32,946 nucleotides of DNA from Erysipelotrichaceae bacterium (GTDB lineage: Bacteria; Bacillota_I; Bacilli_A; RFN20; CAG-826), in assembly GCA_022777645.1 (NCBI GenBank), contig JALFFX010000053.1, positions 1-32,946 on the forward strand. The letters run 5' to 3'. A program made the position numbers and the translations under genes. The notes under the pieces are model-generated. The model saw only the letters and a program-made list of their open reading frames with translations. It was not told the DNA's origin and did not search any database. How positions within the stretch are numbered: the first letter of the stretch is position 1; the number at the start of each line of letters is the position of its first letter. This document shows positions 4,485 to 27,657 of the stretch, one piece after another.

Positions 4485-5785
4485 AATTCATTAAAGCAAT
4501 ACTTAGATTCTTCTTTAAATTCACAGGATTTCTTCCTTTATTTTTGCTTTTAAGACAAAGATATTATAAAGATAATGTAAAAAAGAAATCGCGAGCGATA
4601 AAAGGTAAAGCAATTTTGATTTCTAATCACACCCATATCATGGATTATTTTACTCTTTTATTTGCTCATGTTTTTCGCAAACAAAGATTTTTGGTGTCAG
4701 AAGCAGTATATGCTCATCCTATTTTAGGATTTTTAAATTCGATAATGGATAACATTTTGGTCCATCGTGAAAGAAGCGATTTATCGTTTATGTCTGATGC
4801 GGAAAACACTTTAAATCGTGGCGGAGTAATATCTATTTTTCCTGAAGGAAAATTATATAAAGATGGCTCAATTGGCGAATTTCGCCCTGCTTTTGTTTAT
4901 TTATCATTAAGGACTAATGCTCCAATTATTCCTCATTATATTGAAGGTAATTATTGCAAATGGAAAAGAACAAGAATCATTCAAGGCGATCCAATATACG
5001 CGAAAGATTATTTAAGCGATACGCCTACTGTTGATGAAATTAAATCTTTTTGCGAATTATTGCGAAAAAAGACTTTGGATTTAAAAAGGAAGATGACGCT
5101 TTACAAACGTTATAAAACCCAAAATATATTTAATTTAAAAGCTTGGTTTTTAGATTTAGCAAAAGTATTTTTATATATTCCAACCAAACTTGTTTTTCCT
5201 ACAAAATTCCATTATCTTGACGGTGCTTCAAGAAAAGATAGAAAGATAAAAGGAAGAGCGCTCATCTGCTCAAAACATTCCAGTTTTTCAGATGCTCCAA
5301 TTCTCGCTATGCATTATTTGTCAAGGCGAGTCCACATAGTTGTGGCCGAGGAACTTTACGATGTTATGGGCTGGATTTTAGACCACTTTTTATCAATAAA
5401 ATATAAGCGTGTAGGTGAAAAATCTGATCCAAAATGTTTTATGGAAATTATTTCACTTTTAAAAGCCGAAGGAGTAGTGGGTATTTATCCTGAAGGACAT
5501 ATCAAAAAAGATGAGCTTGGAACGATTCATGATGGTGTCGCATATTTTGCCTTAAATGGTGATGCCCCAATTCATTTCTATTACATGGCACGTCCATATC
5601 GCCCATTTCATTTCAATCATATAATGATTGGCAAAACAATTTATCCAAGTGATTTCTTCGATAAAAATGATTTGAAAAATAAAGAAAATATTCCAATTTT
5701 AACCTCGATAATTAAAGCGGAAATGGAGCGTCTTGACGAGGCTGCAGAACCGTATAAATTGAAACCAAAAAAAGCAAAAAATTAG
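4481..5785 (+). CDS. Tandem (two-domain) lysophosphatidic acid acyltransferase-like protein
   Basis: The 434-residue product contains two PlsC-type glycerophosphate acyltransferase domains in one chain. Domain 1 has the catalytic HX4D motif in NHTHIMD (His 50, Asp 55) and the substrate motif FPEGK (121-123). Domain 2 has KHSSFSD (His 266, Asp 271) and YPEGH (337-339). Both therefore look catalytically competent, whereas normal PlsC enzymes have a single domain of about 200-250 residues. A hydrophobic N-terminal stretch (about 7-24) suggests membrane attachment. The likely role is phospholipid acylation, but the acyl donor and acceptor cannot be read. The gene overlaps queH by 4 nt (ATGA) and ends just before a terminator. 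Confidence 0.85.
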   Translation: MKFIKAILRFFFKFTGFLPLFLLLRQRYYKDNVKKKSRAIKGKAILISNHTHIMDYFTLLFAHVFRKQRFLVSEAVYAHPILGFLNSIMDNILVHRERSDLSFMSDAENTLNRGGVISIFPEGKLYKDGSIGEFRPAFVYLSLRTNAPIIPHYIEGNYCKWKRTRIIQGDPIYAKDYLSDTPTVDEIKSFCELLRKKTLDLKRKMTLYKRYKTQNIFNLKAWFLDLAKVFLYIPTKLVFPTKFHYLDGASRKDRKIKGRALICSKHSSFSDAPILAMHYLSRRVHIVVAEELYDVMGWILDHFLSIKYKRVGEKSDPKCFMEIISLLKAEGVVGIYPEGHIKKDELGTIHDGVAYFALNGDAPIHFYYMARPYRPFHFNHIMIGKTIYPSDFFDKNDLKNKENIPILTSIIKAEMERLDEAAEPYKLKPKKAKN

Positions 5786-5818
5786 GCAAAAAAATTACAA
5801 AAACTTGCCTCTTTTTTT
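5784..5818 (+). terminator. Rho-independent terminator after the acyltransferase gene
   Basis: AGGCAA (5784-5789) pairs with TTGCCT (5805-5810) over a 15-nt loop and is followed by C and a run of seven T. The stem is short, so efficiency may be moderate. It separates the queuosine/acyltransferase unit from the ribosomal protein operon. Confidence 0.6.
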
Positions 5819-5861
5819 GTTTTTTGAAATTGAAAAAATCAAGAAAATAGCAAAAATTTAT

Positions 5862-5890
5862 TTGCCTTATATAAAATATAGTAGTATTAT
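5862..5890 (+). promoter_or_regulatory. Promoter of the S10-spc-alpha ribosomal protein operon
   Basis: TTGCCT (5862-5867) and TATTAT (5885-5890) are separated by exactly 17 bp, a good housekeeping sigma-factor promoter. The predicted start near 5897 gives an untranslated leader of about 125 nt before rpsJ. No other equally good promoter is seen before rpsJ. Confidence 0.65.
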
Positions 5891-5896
5891 TAAACA

Positions 5897-6021
5897 CGTT
5901 AGCATCTGCGTTGACATGCGAGGTTGCTGATACACTGACAGGCGTTGTCATGATACAGGTATCAGGTAATTCGCATCGAGCATTTGTTGAAAGCCTGAAG
6001 AAAGAAAAAAGGAGGAAAATC
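5897..6021 (+). promoter_or_regulatory. Structured 5' leader of the S10 operon (candidate autoregulatory RNA)
   Basis: The leader contains three nested helices: ATGCG (5916-5920) with CGCAT (5972-5976), TGATAC (5928-5933) with GTATCA (5959-5964), and TGACA (5936-5940) with TGTCA (5946-5950). The rpsJ Shine-Dalgarno GGAGG follows about 35 nt later. Ribosomal protein operons are often controlled by such leaders binding one of their products (L4 in E. coli; S10 leaders have been proposed in other Bacillota). Which protein would bind here cannot be read from the sequence. Confidence 0.45.
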
Positions 6022-6333
6022 ATGGCAAATGTAAAAACTATCAGAGTTCGTTTGCAAGCTTATGACCACAAGGTATTAGACGCTGCTGTCGCCAAGGTCG
6101 TCAAAGTTGCAAAAGACACTGGGGCCAAAGTTGTGGGTCCTATTCCGCTACCAACGGAAAAACAAGTTTATACGATTTTAAGAGCTGTTCACAAATACAA
6201 AGATTCCCGTGAACAATTCGAAATCAGAACACACAAGAGATTGATCGATATCATCAACCCAAAGAAAGAAACAGTCGATATGCTCAAACGTCTCGACTTA
6301 CCTAGTGGCGTTGATATCGATGCAAAGTTATAA
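6022..6333 (+). CDS. rpsJ: 30S ribosomal protein S10
   Basis: S10 belongs to the 30S head and, with NusB, to transcription antitermination complexes. The 103-residue protein has the family length and the signature [12 protein letters not shown], followed by [21 protein letters not shown] chose the ATG at 6022, preceded by a strong Shine-Dalgarno (AAAGGAGG); the open frame continues 37 codons upstream, but that part is the untranslated leader. It is the first gene of the operon and is followed by rplC after 14 nt. Confidence 0.97.
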
Positions 6334-6347
6334 GGAGGTAAGACGCT

Positions 6348-7043
6348 ATGAAACAAATAGTTGGTCGTAAAATGGGCATGACAGAAGTGTTCGCTGCTGA
6401 CGGCACTATGTATGCAGTTACCGTTGTTGAAGTCTTACCAAACGTTGTTACACAAGTCAAAACCGTCGAAAAAGATGGCTATGCTGCTCTTCAAGTTGGA
6501 TTTGAAGAAAAGAAAGAAAGCAAAGTCAATTCCGCTGAACGTGGTCACTTTGCTAAAGCTGGTGTTAAAGCAACAAAAGTTCTCGCTGAAGTTAAAGGTG
6601 ATGAACTCGCAGGTTACAAAGTTGGTGACGCAATCACTGCTGATATCTTCAAAGCAGGCGATGTCGTCGATGTAACTGGTACATCAAAAGGTCGTGGCTA
6701 TGCTGGCACAATCAAACGCTGGGGTCACAAGATTGGACCTAAAGGACATGGTTCAGGTTATCACCGTGGCCAAGGTTCATTCGCCAATAATGGTCGTAAC
6801 AACGCACGTGTTATTCCAGGTAAGAAAATGTCTGGTCACCACGGTAACTTATCAGCCACAATTCTCAACCTCAAAGTTGTTGAATCAAACGCTGAAAAGA
6901 ATTACATCTTAATCAAAGGTGCAGTTCCAGGTCCAAAGAAATCTCTCGTTACCATTAGAAGTGCTGTCAAAGCACAACTTGGTCAACCAGAAGTTATCAA
7001 GGAATTAGTTAGTTACGAAACTAACGAAGTGAAAGGAGAATAG
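6348..7043 (+). CDS. rplC: 50S ribosomal protein L3
   Basis: L3 is an early assembly protein whose central loop reaches toward the peptidyl transferase centre. The protein starts KQIVGRKMGMTEVF and has the family blocks GTSKGRGYAGTIKRW and LIKGAVPGPKKSLV. At 231 residues it is about 20 longer than typical, partly through a C-terminal tail. The loop near the catalytic centre (residues 141-158) is unusual: it reads GQGSFANNGRNNARVIPG and lacks the common PxRVFKG pattern. The start has a good Shine-Dalgarno (AAGGAGG). Confidence 0.96.
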   Translation: MKQIVGRKMGMTEVFAADGTMYAVTVVEVLPNVVTQVKTVEKDGYAALQVGFEEKKESKVNSAERGHFAKAGVKATKVLAEVKGDELAGYKVGDAITADIFKAGDVVDVTGTSKGRGYAGTIKRWGHKIGPKGHGSGYHRGQGSFANNGRNNARVIPGKKMSGHHGNLSATILNLKVVESNAEKNYILIKGAVPGPKKSLVTIRSAVKAQLGQPEVIKELVSYETNEVKGE

Positions 7044-7045
7044 TT

Positions 7046-7687
7046 ATGGCTTCCAAAAAATTATTAGTTAACGTCTATTCTCTTGCTGGTGAAAAGGTTA
7101 GCGAAGTTAACCTCGAACCAACAGTCTTCGGTGTCAAAGAAAATAAACAAGTAATGTATGACGCTGTTAAAGTCTATCAAGCTAACATGCGCCAAGATAC
7201 CGCTAAGACTAAAAAACGTGATGAAGTCAGTGGTGGTGGTAAAAAACCATGGAGACAAAAAGGAACAGGCCGTGCTAGAGCAGGTTCATCCCGTTCACCA
7301 ATCTGGGTTGGCGGTGGAACAGTGTTTGGTCCTACAGGTGTCCAAAACCACAAACTCTCACAAAATAGAAAAGAACATAAGTTAGCATTACGCTCAGCTT
7401 ATTCTTCAAAAGTTAAAGGCTTAGTCGTTGTTGATTCACTTCAAGTCGAAGCAATCTCAACAAAAGCAGTTGCTGCTTCTCTTAAAGCCCTTAACGCCAC
7501 TGGAAAAGTTCTCGTTGTTCTCTCTGACTTCAACGAAAAATTCATTCTCAGTGCCAATAACATTAACAACCTTGTCGTCACAAGTGTTAATAATGTTTCC
7601 GTCTATGACTTAATGTATTTCGATCACATTGTCATGGAAGAAAAGACCTTACACGAGGTTGAAAACTTACTCAAGGAGGGCAAATAA
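7046..7687 (+). CDS. rplD: 50S ribosomal protein L4
   Basis: L4 lines the upper peptide exit tunnel through an extended loop, here GGGKKPWRQKGTGRARAGSS (about residues 65-84), the diagnostic family motif. The length of 213 residues is normal. In E. coli L4 also represses its own operon by binding the S10 leader; whether that applies here is unknown. The gene lies 2 nt after the rplC stop, with GGAG inside the end of rplC as ribosome binding site. Confidence 0.96.
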   Translation: MASKKLLVNVYSLAGEKVSEVNLEPTVFGVKENKQVMYDAVKVYQANMRQDTAKTKKRDEVSGGGKKPWRQKGTGRARAGSSRSPIWVGGGTVFGPTGVQNHKLSQNRKEHKLALRSAYSSKVKGLVVVDSLQVEAISTKAVAASLKALNATGKVLVVLSDFNEKFILSANNINNLVVTSVNNVSVYDLMYFDHIVMEEKTLHEVENLLKEGK

Positions 7688-21452: not shown

Positions 21453-22364
21453 ATGGACGAAATTATTGAAAAATACGAAGCTCTCCGCTTAAGTAGAGTT
21501 AAACGTGCCCGCATTTTTCAAATTATTTTTATTGCCGCGATTGTGGTGACAACTATATGTTTTATTACCACAATAATCATGGGTGGAAATACTTTAGTTA
21601 GCATCTTTGCTGGAATCAATATTGTATTATTTATCATTTTTATCAGCTTATTTCTTACTGAAAAAAGAAAATGGTATCGCTTTTTCAAAACAACAATTGT
21701 TAAAGATTTGATTCAAGCTAAATATCCTGGAAGTGTATTTAATCCAGATGCTGGTATTGATCTTAATACGTTGATGAAGCCAGAATTCTTCGCTCGTCCA
21801 GATCGATATTATAGCAATGACTTGCTTGTGGCCGGCATTGATTCTACTTCCTTTACAATGTCTGATTATGTTTTGCAAAAACGTCACGAAGATAAAGACG
21901 GACATATCACATATCAAACATACGCTGAAGGAAGATTCTTCGATTTCCATTTCAACCGTGATTTTAAAAACACAGTGCGTGTTATTGAAAAACAAGGATT
22001 TTTCACTTTTGGTGATAAATCAAAAAGAGTTGAACTTGAATCAGTAGATTTCAATAAGAAATTCAATACTTTTGCTACTGATGAACTAACAGCGTTTTAT
22101 ATTCTTACTCCACAAGTGCAAGAAGAAATGCTTCGTCTTGAATCTTGTTTTAAAGGCAATATTATGTTTTGCTTCAATGTCGATCATTTATATATTGCGG
22201 TAAATGATGGTAAAGACTCTTTTGTCAGCGATTTATTTAAACCAGTTTCAAAAGAAAATATCTCTAAATTAGTGGAAGAAATTGAAATTCCTTTAAATTT
22301 CATTAACGCTTTAAAACTTAATCGCGAAAAATATTCACGCGATATTGATAACGACGCGATTTAA
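21453..22364 (+). CDS. DUF3137-type membrane protein paired with LemA
   Basis: The 303-residue product has two hydrophobic segments near the N-terminus (about 21-43 and 48-68) followed by a soluble domain. The latter carries the DUF3137 pattern: EGRFFDFHFNRDFKNTVRV, then ELESVDFNKKFNTFATD, AFYILTPQVQEEMLRLE and CFNVDHLYIAVND. The function of this family is unknown. It starts 2 nt after lemA (TAATTATG) without a Shine-Dalgarno, so it probably depends on lemA translation. The stop codon lies in the loop of a terminator hairpin. Confidence 0.8.
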   Translation: MDEIIEKYEALRLSRVKRARIFQIIFIAAIVVTTICFITTIIMGGNTLVSIFAGINIVLFIIFISLFLTEKRKWYRFFKTTIVKDLIQAKYPGSVFNPDAGIDLNTLMKPEFFARPDRYYSNDLLVAGIDSTSFTMSDYVLQKRHEDKDGHITYQTYAEGRFFDFHFNRDFKNTVRVIEKQGFFTFGDKSKRVELESVDFNKKFNTFATDELTAFYILTPQVQEEMLRLESCFKGNIMFCFNVDHLYIAVNDGKDSFVSDLFKPVSKENISKLVEEIEIPLNFINALKLNREKYSRDIDNDAI

Positions 22365-22377
22365 TTCGCGTCTTTTC
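22353..22377 (+). terminator. Terminator overlapping the end of the DUF3137 gene
   Basis: GACGCGA (22353-22359) pairs with TCGCGTC (22366-22372) over a 6-nt loop that holds the gene's TAA stop codon; TTTT follows shortly after. The hairpin ends about 10 nt before the next start codon, leaving no room for a downstream promoter with a leader. Confidence 0.65.
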
Positions 22378-22382
22378 TGTTT

Positions 22383-23744
22383 ATGATGAAAAAAATATTA
22401 TTAAGTATTATTTGTTTATTATCTCTTGGATCTTGCTCTATTTTGGTTACACAAAATTCATCTACTAGTAGCAACGATTCAACATCAACTGATATTTCAA
22501 CATCCTCTGGTGAAGATGTTTCATCTGATGATTCAACTTTAGTTGATGATTCTTCTTATGAGATAATAACAAGTGAAAATTATCAACCACCTATTTCATC
22601 ATCTTTTCCAAGTGAAGAAGCTACATCTTATAAAGTAATTGATAATACATATTCAAGTGCATTTTCATTTAAATATACTACGGGCAATTATTCAAACCAA
22701 TATGGCGTAGATGCTTCTATTAATATCCTTGATATTGATTTTCAATATTATCGCGCGGTTCAAGCTCCTGATGGATATTTAATCAAAATGCTTGATCTTG
22801 ATGCGGCATTAGCTTTTTCTAATCAGCTCGGCGGAGCTTTGATGAATGTTTCAGAAATTAACCACTTAGCGAATATTGAAATTACATATTATAACGAATC
22901 ATCATCTATTAGTGGTGGATATGTTAGATTTGGCAAAAATCTTACTTGTGCTTATGGCTATGAATTAACTTATTCAGAAAGTGATATTACATTATCATTT
23001 AATATTCCTGAATCAAAATATTTCCGCATTGAAACTAATGGGGCAAATCTTGTTATCAAAAGCATCAAATTAGGAATTGCTCAAGGAAATGTCGCTGATG
23101 ATGGATATGGTTATTATACAAAACAAGAATATCGCATTAATCCAATCAAATTTAGCGGTGAACTTCAAAGCGGTGTCTCTTTTGTTGATGTTCCTACATC
23201 TATTTCAGTTAATAAAAATAGTTCAACATATATCGTAAACGAAACAAAAAGACTAACTTATTATGATTATGATTATGTCACTTCAAATAATCTTGAACCT
23301 AGTGAAGTAAGTATTATCGATCCTCTTGAAGTCGCTCTTTATTATGCGGCATTTAATAAGGCACCGGTGAATTATAATGAAAGCGGAAGCAGCAATCATT
23401 CATATTTTGGTGATTATGCTCGACGTATATCTTCTGAATATTCTAGAACTGATGGTTATGTTAATGCTTTATCTGGCATTACACCAACAGATGGTTATAT
23501 CGAATTAGATATTGGAGTTAATGGTAATTACGCAATAAGAAGTCGTGGAGTTGGCCGAATCGTTGTCTTTTATAGCGGTTCTTCGTCTTCAGGTTATGAT
23601 AATTCTCCACTTCTTGTTTATACCGATGATCACTATGCAACATTTCGTGAATTTTTAGGCTATGATTTTTCACTTCCATTTGATGCTCAAAATCAGAGAA
23701 CCGGTAATACATATAAGCCATATAATGTCTTATCGCCTAAATAA
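22383..23744 (+). CDS. Lipoprotein with a barnase-like ribonuclease domain at the C-terminus
   Basis: This 453-residue product begins with a lipoprotein signal peptide (lipobox LGSC, Cys 18; two adjacent ATGs possible). A Ser/Thr/Asp linker (about 19-80) and a middle beta-rich region (about 85-235) follow. Residues about 312-425 resemble guanyl-specific ribonucleases of the barnase type: EVALYYAAFNKAPVNY matches the N-terminal helix, YIELDI places Glu 374 at the catalytic glutamate, the RSRGVGRIVVF segment gives Arg 386-392, and YTDDHYATF places His 417 at the catalytic histidine. It would therefore act on RNA outside the cell, tethered to the membrane. No barstar-like inhibitor is next to it. 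No Shine-Dalgarno precedes the start, which lies just after a terminator. Confidence 0.7.
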   Translation: MMKKILLSIICLLSLGSCSILVTQNSSTSSNDSTSTDISTSSGEDVSSDDSTLVDDSSYEIITSENYQPPISSSFPSEEATSYKVIDNTYSSAFSFKYTTGNYSNQYGVDASINILDIDFQYYRAVQAPDGYLIKMLDLDAALAFSNQLGGALMNVSEINHLANIEITYYNESSSISGGYVRFGKNLTCAYGYELTYSESDITLSFNIPESKYFRIETNGANLVIKSIKLGIAQGNVADDGYGYYTKQEYRINPIKFSGELQSGVSFVDVPTSISVNKNSSTYIVNETKRLTYYDYDYVTSNNLEPSEVSIIDPLEVALYYAAFNKAPVNYNESGSSNHSYFGDYARRISSEYSRTDGYVNALSGITPTDGYIELDIGVNGNYAIRSRGVGRIVVFYSGSSSSGYDNSPLLVYTDDHYATFREFLGYDFSLPFDAQNQRTGNTYKPYNVLSPK

Positions 23745-26862: not shown

Positions 26863-27657
26863 TTATGCATATAGCCAAGATTTATAACTAATATAATCTA
26901 TTCCAAAATTGTAACATTGCGAACCTTTATAAGGTTTTTCGTTTAATCTTATATCAAAATAGCAAACATCTTTTGTATAACTTTCAGTTAAATATACTTT
27001 AATATAATTGCCTGCAGATGAAACCGTAATAGAACCTTCACTTATTTTTGAATAGCCAAGTTTATTGCCATCTTTATCAAAATAATAAATGTGCATTGTA
27101 TCTTTGTTTTCAACTGGCTTATCTGTGGCGTTATTAACTTGACTGATACCAATTCGAATTTCAAGTTTTTCGCCATCGTGCTTAAACATATTTGATTGCA
27201 CTCCAATACCTTTTTCAGTGACTTTAAGTCCGCCTGGAGCGTTATTGTTCACACTATAAAAGCTTGGATTAGTTTTATGATATTTTGGACCATCATCACA
27301 AGCATTTTTATAAATATATCTAAAATCAGAAGGAAGAGTTTCTTTTAAAGAATAATTATTCCATGTAGTTGATGATGTATCGGCTTTTATTGATAACGGA
27401 TTATTATAATTTTTTGGTAAATCCATTTCATAATAACCACATTCTAATAATTCGCGATTATTAGTCCAATCTTCTTCACTGTCAACTGAACTGGTGGAAG
27501 AAGATGAAGACTCTATTGTTGAAGTTATATCTTCGTTACTTGACGTTTCAGTAGTTGAAGTAGAATCTATAACATCACTTGATGAAATATCTTCTTTTTG
27601 ATTGCAAGAAGTTAAAAGTAAAGGAATAAATAATAATAAATAATTAATCTTTTTCAT
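26863..27657 (-). CDS. Lipoprotein of unknown function with Ser/Thr-rich linker
   Basis: The 264-residue product, the only clear minus-strand gene, has a lipoprotein signal peptide with lipobox LLTSC (Cys 18) and a Ser/Thr/Glu/Asp linker (about 20-62). The rest is beta-rich, with the elements GLKVTEKGIGVQSNMFKHDG, KLEIRIG, ITVSSAGNYIKVYL and a closing FGIDYISYKSW strand, suggestive of a beta-sandwich. I see no catalytic motif. Similar lipoproteins lie at 22383 and 28169. No Shine-Dalgarno is present; a -10-like box lies 8 nt before the ATG. Confidence 0.75.
   Translation of the reverse strand: MKKINYLLLFIPLLLTSCNQKEDISSSDVIDSTSTTETSSNEDITSTIESSSSSTSSVDSEEDWTNNRELLECGYYEMDLPKNYNNPLSIKADTSSTTWNNYSLKETLPSDFRYIYKNACDDGPKYHKTNPSFYSVNNNAPGGLKVTEKGIGVQSNMFKHDGEKLEIRIGISQVNNATDKPVENKDTMHIYYFDKDGNKLGYSKISEGSITVSSAGNYIKVYLTESYTKDVCYFDIRLNEKPYKGSQCYNFGIDYISYKSWLYA

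Follow-up and report, generated by a model that had tools for sequence, protein, structure and literature searches.

Which task a ribonuclease tethered to the outside of a cell might fulfil is the question raised by a single gene of an uncultured gut-type bacterium with a genome of 1.3 Mb that is 99.6% complete. The gene is located in a DNA stretch of 32,946 nucleotides, which as a whole is termed the window here. In a first-pass annotation, its product had been described as a lipid-anchored barnase-like ribonuclease of use either in nucleotide scavenging or in contact-dependent competition.

Architecture and predicted export of the ribonuclease

The whole gene (22383..23744, plus strand, as are all its parts) is an open reading frame for an exported lipoprotein of 453 amino acids. 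The lipoprotein signal peptide (22383..22436), with the sequence MMKKILLSIICLLSLGSC, contains the lipobox LGSC (residues 15-18), and from this signal with its lipobox export of the ribonuclease and a lipid anchor on Cys18 are predicted. The subsequent linker (residues 19-84; 22437..22634) is rich in serine and threonine (43% over residues 19-85) and probably disordered, as judged from its composition and from a pLDDT below 50 at the first residues of an AlphaFold model spanning residues 80-453. A middle domain (residues ~85-290; 22635..23249), by AlphaFold and Foldseek a jelly-roll-like beta-sandwich resembling carbohydrate-binding modules (CBMs), precedes the C-terminal catalytic domain, which is assigned to the barnase family by sequence homology (residues ~290-453 with the core at 300-440; 23250..23741). 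Reading frame, lipoprotein signal, linker and the beta-rich character of the middle domain (AlphaFold DSSP) had all been annotated in this way initially and were confirmed.

Among 55 distinct open reading frames of the family, a clear lipobox is recognized by a regular expression in 32, while the others mostly possess an ordinary signal peptide or have a cut or out-of-frame start. Lipidation is plausible, since the genome encodes the lipoprotein diacylglyceryl transferase Lgt (PF01790, E 5e-42). A terminator-like hairpin, GACGCGA-TTTAAT-TCGCGTC followed by TTTTCTGTTT, lies across the upstream gene's stop codon (22353-22372) and directly adjoins the ribonuclease start codon (22383), a start without the Shine-Dalgarno sequence that most window genes examined display.

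Upstream are a gene for a DUF3137 protein, according to Pfam, and a presumably LemA-like gene, for which the search gave only a distant match to MamQ. Downstream, a preT-preA operon had been annotated and its role in pyrimidine metabolism tentatively connected with scavenging. PreA is well recognized (NCBIfam NF006183, 624 bits versus a cut-off of 335), while the PreT-like product scores below the curated cut-off of each family listed and can be classified only broadly, as an NAD(P)-binding oxidoreductase. As neither a preT nor a preA neighbour was found at any of 31 related loci, this adjacency is probably due to chance. The window encodes a second Ser/Thr-rich lipoprotein of 264 amino acids (26863-27657, minus strand), which has no family match above curated cut-offs.

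A divergent branch of the barnase family

The match of the window protein to the RNase N1/T1 family PF00545 (E 0.004, 18.1 bits) stays below the Pfam cut-off of 24 bits, although the protein is the sole place matched when the whole genome is searched with this model. Of ten relatives scanned first, two surpass the cut-off (L014 with 26.3 and L003 with 26.4 bits, E ~1e-5). A profile of the C-terminal domain of the relatives retrieves 31 PDB sequences at E<=10, all of them barnase/binase-type ribonucleases and each match individually weak; a single-sequence phmmer search of the PDB gave chance matches only. The family profile also reaches short barnases with a lipoprotein signal in other members of the class, which in turn match PF00545 at E 1e-16 to 1e-20 and barnase structures at E ~1e-35, and hhalign aligns the window family to canonical lipoprotein barnases with a probability of 98.4% (E 1e-14).

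Homology is argued on the basis of the domain profile against the PDB, the PF00545 and PDB matches of the short barnases and the hhalign comparison, and it can be considered settled because relatives pass the cut-off and the profile matches and hhalign concur. As judged from sequence, the C-terminal domain (~300-440) is homologous to barnase and the window protein is an exported, lipid-anchored protein of the barnase family that has diverged from the canonical members. Within this well-known enzyme family the lineage forms an unusual and new branch, and a literature search for earlier accounts of lipoprotein barnases in these lineages showed nothing relevant among the papers listed. The resemblance to barnase recognized at the outset therefore holds, while the extension of 110 residues assigned to the domain then has to be revised to approximately 140.

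In direct comparison with barnase and binase, the family shares, besides equivalents of the catalytic Glu73, Arg83, Arg87 and His102, the N-terminal helix motif VAxYxxxFxxxPxNY and the C-terminal DHYxxF motif. Its domain is, however, about 30 residues longer with insertions and follows a CBM-like domain within a lipoprotein, without a barstar. The short lipoprotein barnases of other Bacilli (for example L095, L096, L097, L102, L103) equally combine a lipid anchor with a barnase domain but, in contrast to the window family, have retained Lys27 together with most of the guanine loop, and they possess no middle domain. A second divergent barnase-like group has been observed in the class (L089, L090, L091, L093, L098, L101, L104), whose members have longer insertions, share a preceding FYxxYExAxSYxDSxxRTxHNFMSG segment and show FYTYNHYNDFQEYLNY in the histidine motif.

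Catalytic residues and substrate recognition

Residue conservation was counted in 40 distinct members, 13 loci having first been retrieved by searching genome contigs. Invariant in 40/40 are Glu374 at the general-base position (23502..23504; barnase Glu73), Asp376 (23508-23510; Asp75), Arg388 (23544..23546; Arg83), Arg392 (23556..23558; Arg87) and, within TDDHYATF, His417 at the general-acid position (23631..23633; His102), as well as Tyr418 (Tyr103); these equivalences are presumed, with the barnase row of the alignment taken as a guide only. Arg388 and Arg392 are spaced by four residues, as are Arg83 and Arg87 of barnase. Of the catalytic positions proposed initially, namely Glu374, the arginines at 386-392 and His417, only Arg386 has to be dismissed (conserved in just 2/40 members).

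Conservation does not extend to the guanine-recognition residues of barnase. The position of barnase Lys27 is occupied by Ser334 in the window protein and by lysine in 17/40 members, and the barnase loop GGDxFxNRExLP is replaced by FGxxxRxxSxYSRTDGY...P, with SRTDGY where barnase has SNRE and with an own set of invariant residues, Arg347, Gly358 and Tyr359. Barnase Arg59 is likewise not conserved; Lys27, Arg59, Arg83 and Arg87 are the residues of barnase in contact with barstar (PMC8837141). As Lys27 and the SNRE guanine loop are traits of barnase itself and not of every PF00545 member, their loss marks a divergent branch and lowers the case for a guanyl-preferring barnase, not for membership in the wider family. 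Catalysis seems to have been retained, whereas the recognition of bases and the binding of barstar have presumably changed: with the guanine loop and Lys27 replaced, the base preference is probably unlike that of barnase and barstar should not inhibit the enzyme.

Predicted structure

AlphaFold modelled residues 80-453 with a pTM of 0.73 and the C-terminal domain alone with a pTM of 0.80. From a shallow alignment of 15 sequences, the latter is predicted to consist of helices followed by five strands, the order expected of barnase, with Glu374 placed on strand two, Arg392 on strand three and His417 between strands four and five. These presumably correspond to the elements that hold the respective residues in barnase. 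In a Foldseek search with this model, built from 15 sequences and with insertions in the domain, barnase was absent among the best 50 PDB matches. The top matches of the barnase domain alone were meaningless in the PDB and nothing meaningful was retrieved among viral models, while the two-domain model retrieved relatives of the middle domain only. The structural matches do not bear out the barnase fold that the first-pass annotation had asked for; only the order of the elements and the placement of the residues agree with it.

Together with the loss of the guanine loop and of Lys27 and the insertions in the core, the failure of Foldseek to retrieve barnase could be taken to indicate a catalytically changed or inactive surface protein that binds RNA or another ligand on a barnase scaffold. 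This reading is most improbable, as the invariance of glutamate, aspartate, both arginines and histidine in 40/40 divergent members is expected only if catalysis is under selection.

The best PDB matches of the middle domain are mostly CBMs, CBM29 foremost but also CBM6/16/35, at E 1e-4 to 1e-3 and with a TM score by target length of up to 0.57. The Pfam scan of the window protein gave no CBM match, and further copies of the domain were not found in the window's genome. An Endonuclease I protein of a congener (G115; L085, 134-3499, minus strand) contains Ig-like repeats and a stretch of the middle domain, so that the module is common to ribonuclease and DNase.

Distribution and genomic partners

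Matches were found in 60/279 genomes of the order, in 57/279 extending past signal peptide and linker. The distribution is patchy, with three genomes of the window's own genus carrying the gene and most lacking it. The barnase domain is often found beside Ig-like, CBM-like or nucleotidase modules and the N-terminal parts vary. In one relative (L014), 5'-nucleotidase, middle domain and barnase domain are united in a single protein; in another (L004), a 5'-nucleotidase lipoprotein gene is located directly upstream of the ribonuclease gene, and at L054 a pyrimidine nucleoside phosphorylase is encoded nearby. An Endonuclease I gene directly precedes the ribonuclease gene at L046-L049 and L052, with its stop overlapping the ribonuclease start or separated from it by a few bases where examined (nearly touching at L046 and L052), and is located 66 bp upstream at L002. 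These six arrangements are not independent events, since five of the six come from one genus. Apparent Endonuclease I neighbours at L004 and L058 were discounted, because Pfam detected no Endonuclease I and only accessory domains are in common.

Long members of about 735-960 amino acids (L009 at 4861-7065, L020, L033, L036 and others) possess an extra N-terminal region, DCxRYFN...YTSLY...TWGTV...QSTDKNG, which has no Pfam match in L009 and by eye appears OB-fold-like. Just upstream of Endonuclease I and ribonuclease, L052 (1897-3213) and L046 (1013-2281) encode a protein of the metallo-beta-lactamase fold that has a hydrophobic segment at its N terminus and in this one genus is possibly another nuclease or phosphodiesterase.

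Nucleotide scavenging as the probable role, and its alternatives

In the 99.6%-complete genome, neither PurD nor PyrB was found, with the search controls positive in 13/14 and 14/14. The absence of these markers implies, short of proof, purine and pyrimidine auxotrophy. The genome contains eight Endonuclease I matches, which represent six or seven genes and mostly carry export signals, and two 5'-nucleotidase genes with export signals. Two of its Endonuclease I genes are arranged in tandem (G000, contig C8, 119-1670; L067, L072) and adjoin an apparent methionyl-tRNA synthetase gene. Across the order, a PurD match occurs in 3/57 genomes with the ribonuclease and 14/222 without (Fisher p = 1.0); the presence of the ribonuclease does not track PurD status because nearly all genomes (262/279) lack a PurD match.

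The scavenging role considered from the beginning thus gains support from the absence of PurD and PyrB, the exported DNases and nucleotidases, the 5'-nucleotidase fusion and the coupling to Endonuclease I. Probably, the window protein is a surface-tethered, metal-independent endoribonuclease that scavenges RNA for salvage; what its sequence shows is the export signal with lipobox and a barnase-homologous domain in which the catalytic set is intact. Lipid and flexible linker would hold the enzyme at the membrane surface and RNA would be cut by transesterification to leave 2',3'-cyclic phosphate ends, both as expected from the family. The CBM-like middle domain, to go by its fold, may keep the enzyme on a polymer, which could be a glycan or else the very nucleic acid that is cut. 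The genomic context suggests that the RNA fragments would be passed to exported 5'-nucleotidase-type phosphoesterases and that the resulting nucleosides would feed salvage, as the cell seemingly lacks its own synthesis of purines and pyrimidines.

The surface location, the glycan-binding-like middle domain and the exported DNases beside the ribonuclease in relatives, which could equally degrade a matrix, would also agree with an enzyme that serves mainly to clear RNA, not to feed the cell, whether by loosening RNA-rich biofilm or mucus or by destroying RNA phages or RNA signals outside the cell. That role is rather unlikely, as the 5'-nucleotidase fusion and the absence of PurD and PyrB point to use of the products.

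The second role considered initially, competition, would make the protein a contact-dependent or diffusible antibacterial toxin with the barnase domain delivered into neighbouring cells. Barnase-type domains are indeed known as C-terminal toxin domains of polymorphic toxins with barstar-type immunity (PMC3482391), and here, too, the domain is C-terminal on an exported protein behind variable N-terminal parts, in a gene of patchy distribution. In contrast to such Tox-Barnase toxins, the window protein is not accompanied by an immunity gene: barstar (PF01337), sought elsewhere in the genome as had been suggested, is absent and is present in only 1/41 genomes of relatives, and the gaps of 18 bp upstream and about 42 bp downstream leave no room for one. 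A delivery or pre-toxin module was not found by Pfam, conservation is lacking at the barstar-contacting positions Lys27 and Arg59, and the domain is often combined with Ig-like, CBM-like and nucleotidase modules and coupled to DNases. Competition has consequently found no support, and a toxin is very unlikely.

The mycoplasma nuclease MnuA, a functional counterpart of the proposed scavenging enzyme, belongs to a nuclease family other than barnase. As a surface nuclease together with 5'-nucleotidase lipoproteins, MnuA, which has been assayed on DNA, feeds salvage in cells without de novo synthesis (PMC11729948). The succession of surface lipoprotein nuclease and nucleotidase predicted here is alike, but the window enzyme is a barnase-type ribonuclease beside Endonuclease I DNases.

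Implications

Taken further, the family may represent an undescribed barnase branch of uncultured gut Bacilli that has kept catalysis, swapped guanine recognition, escaped barstar, become modular with a CBM-like domain and been integrated into an exported DNase-RNase-nucleotidase chain that feeds auxotrophs, a composite picture that is put forward tentatively. To enzymologists, such a relative of barnase from nature, in which substrate recognition is altered, would be of use. Small genomes and apparent nucleotide auxotrophy are common among uncultured gut Bacilli, and their nucleotide supply routes are largely inferred. A surface ribonuclease family that occurs in roughly one fifth of the genomes sampled from the order, in some cases fused or coupled to nucleotidases and DNases, suggests a way, open to testing, in which nucleosides could be gained from external RNA, and RNA or nucleosides might be a possible culture-medium ingredient for such Bacilli.
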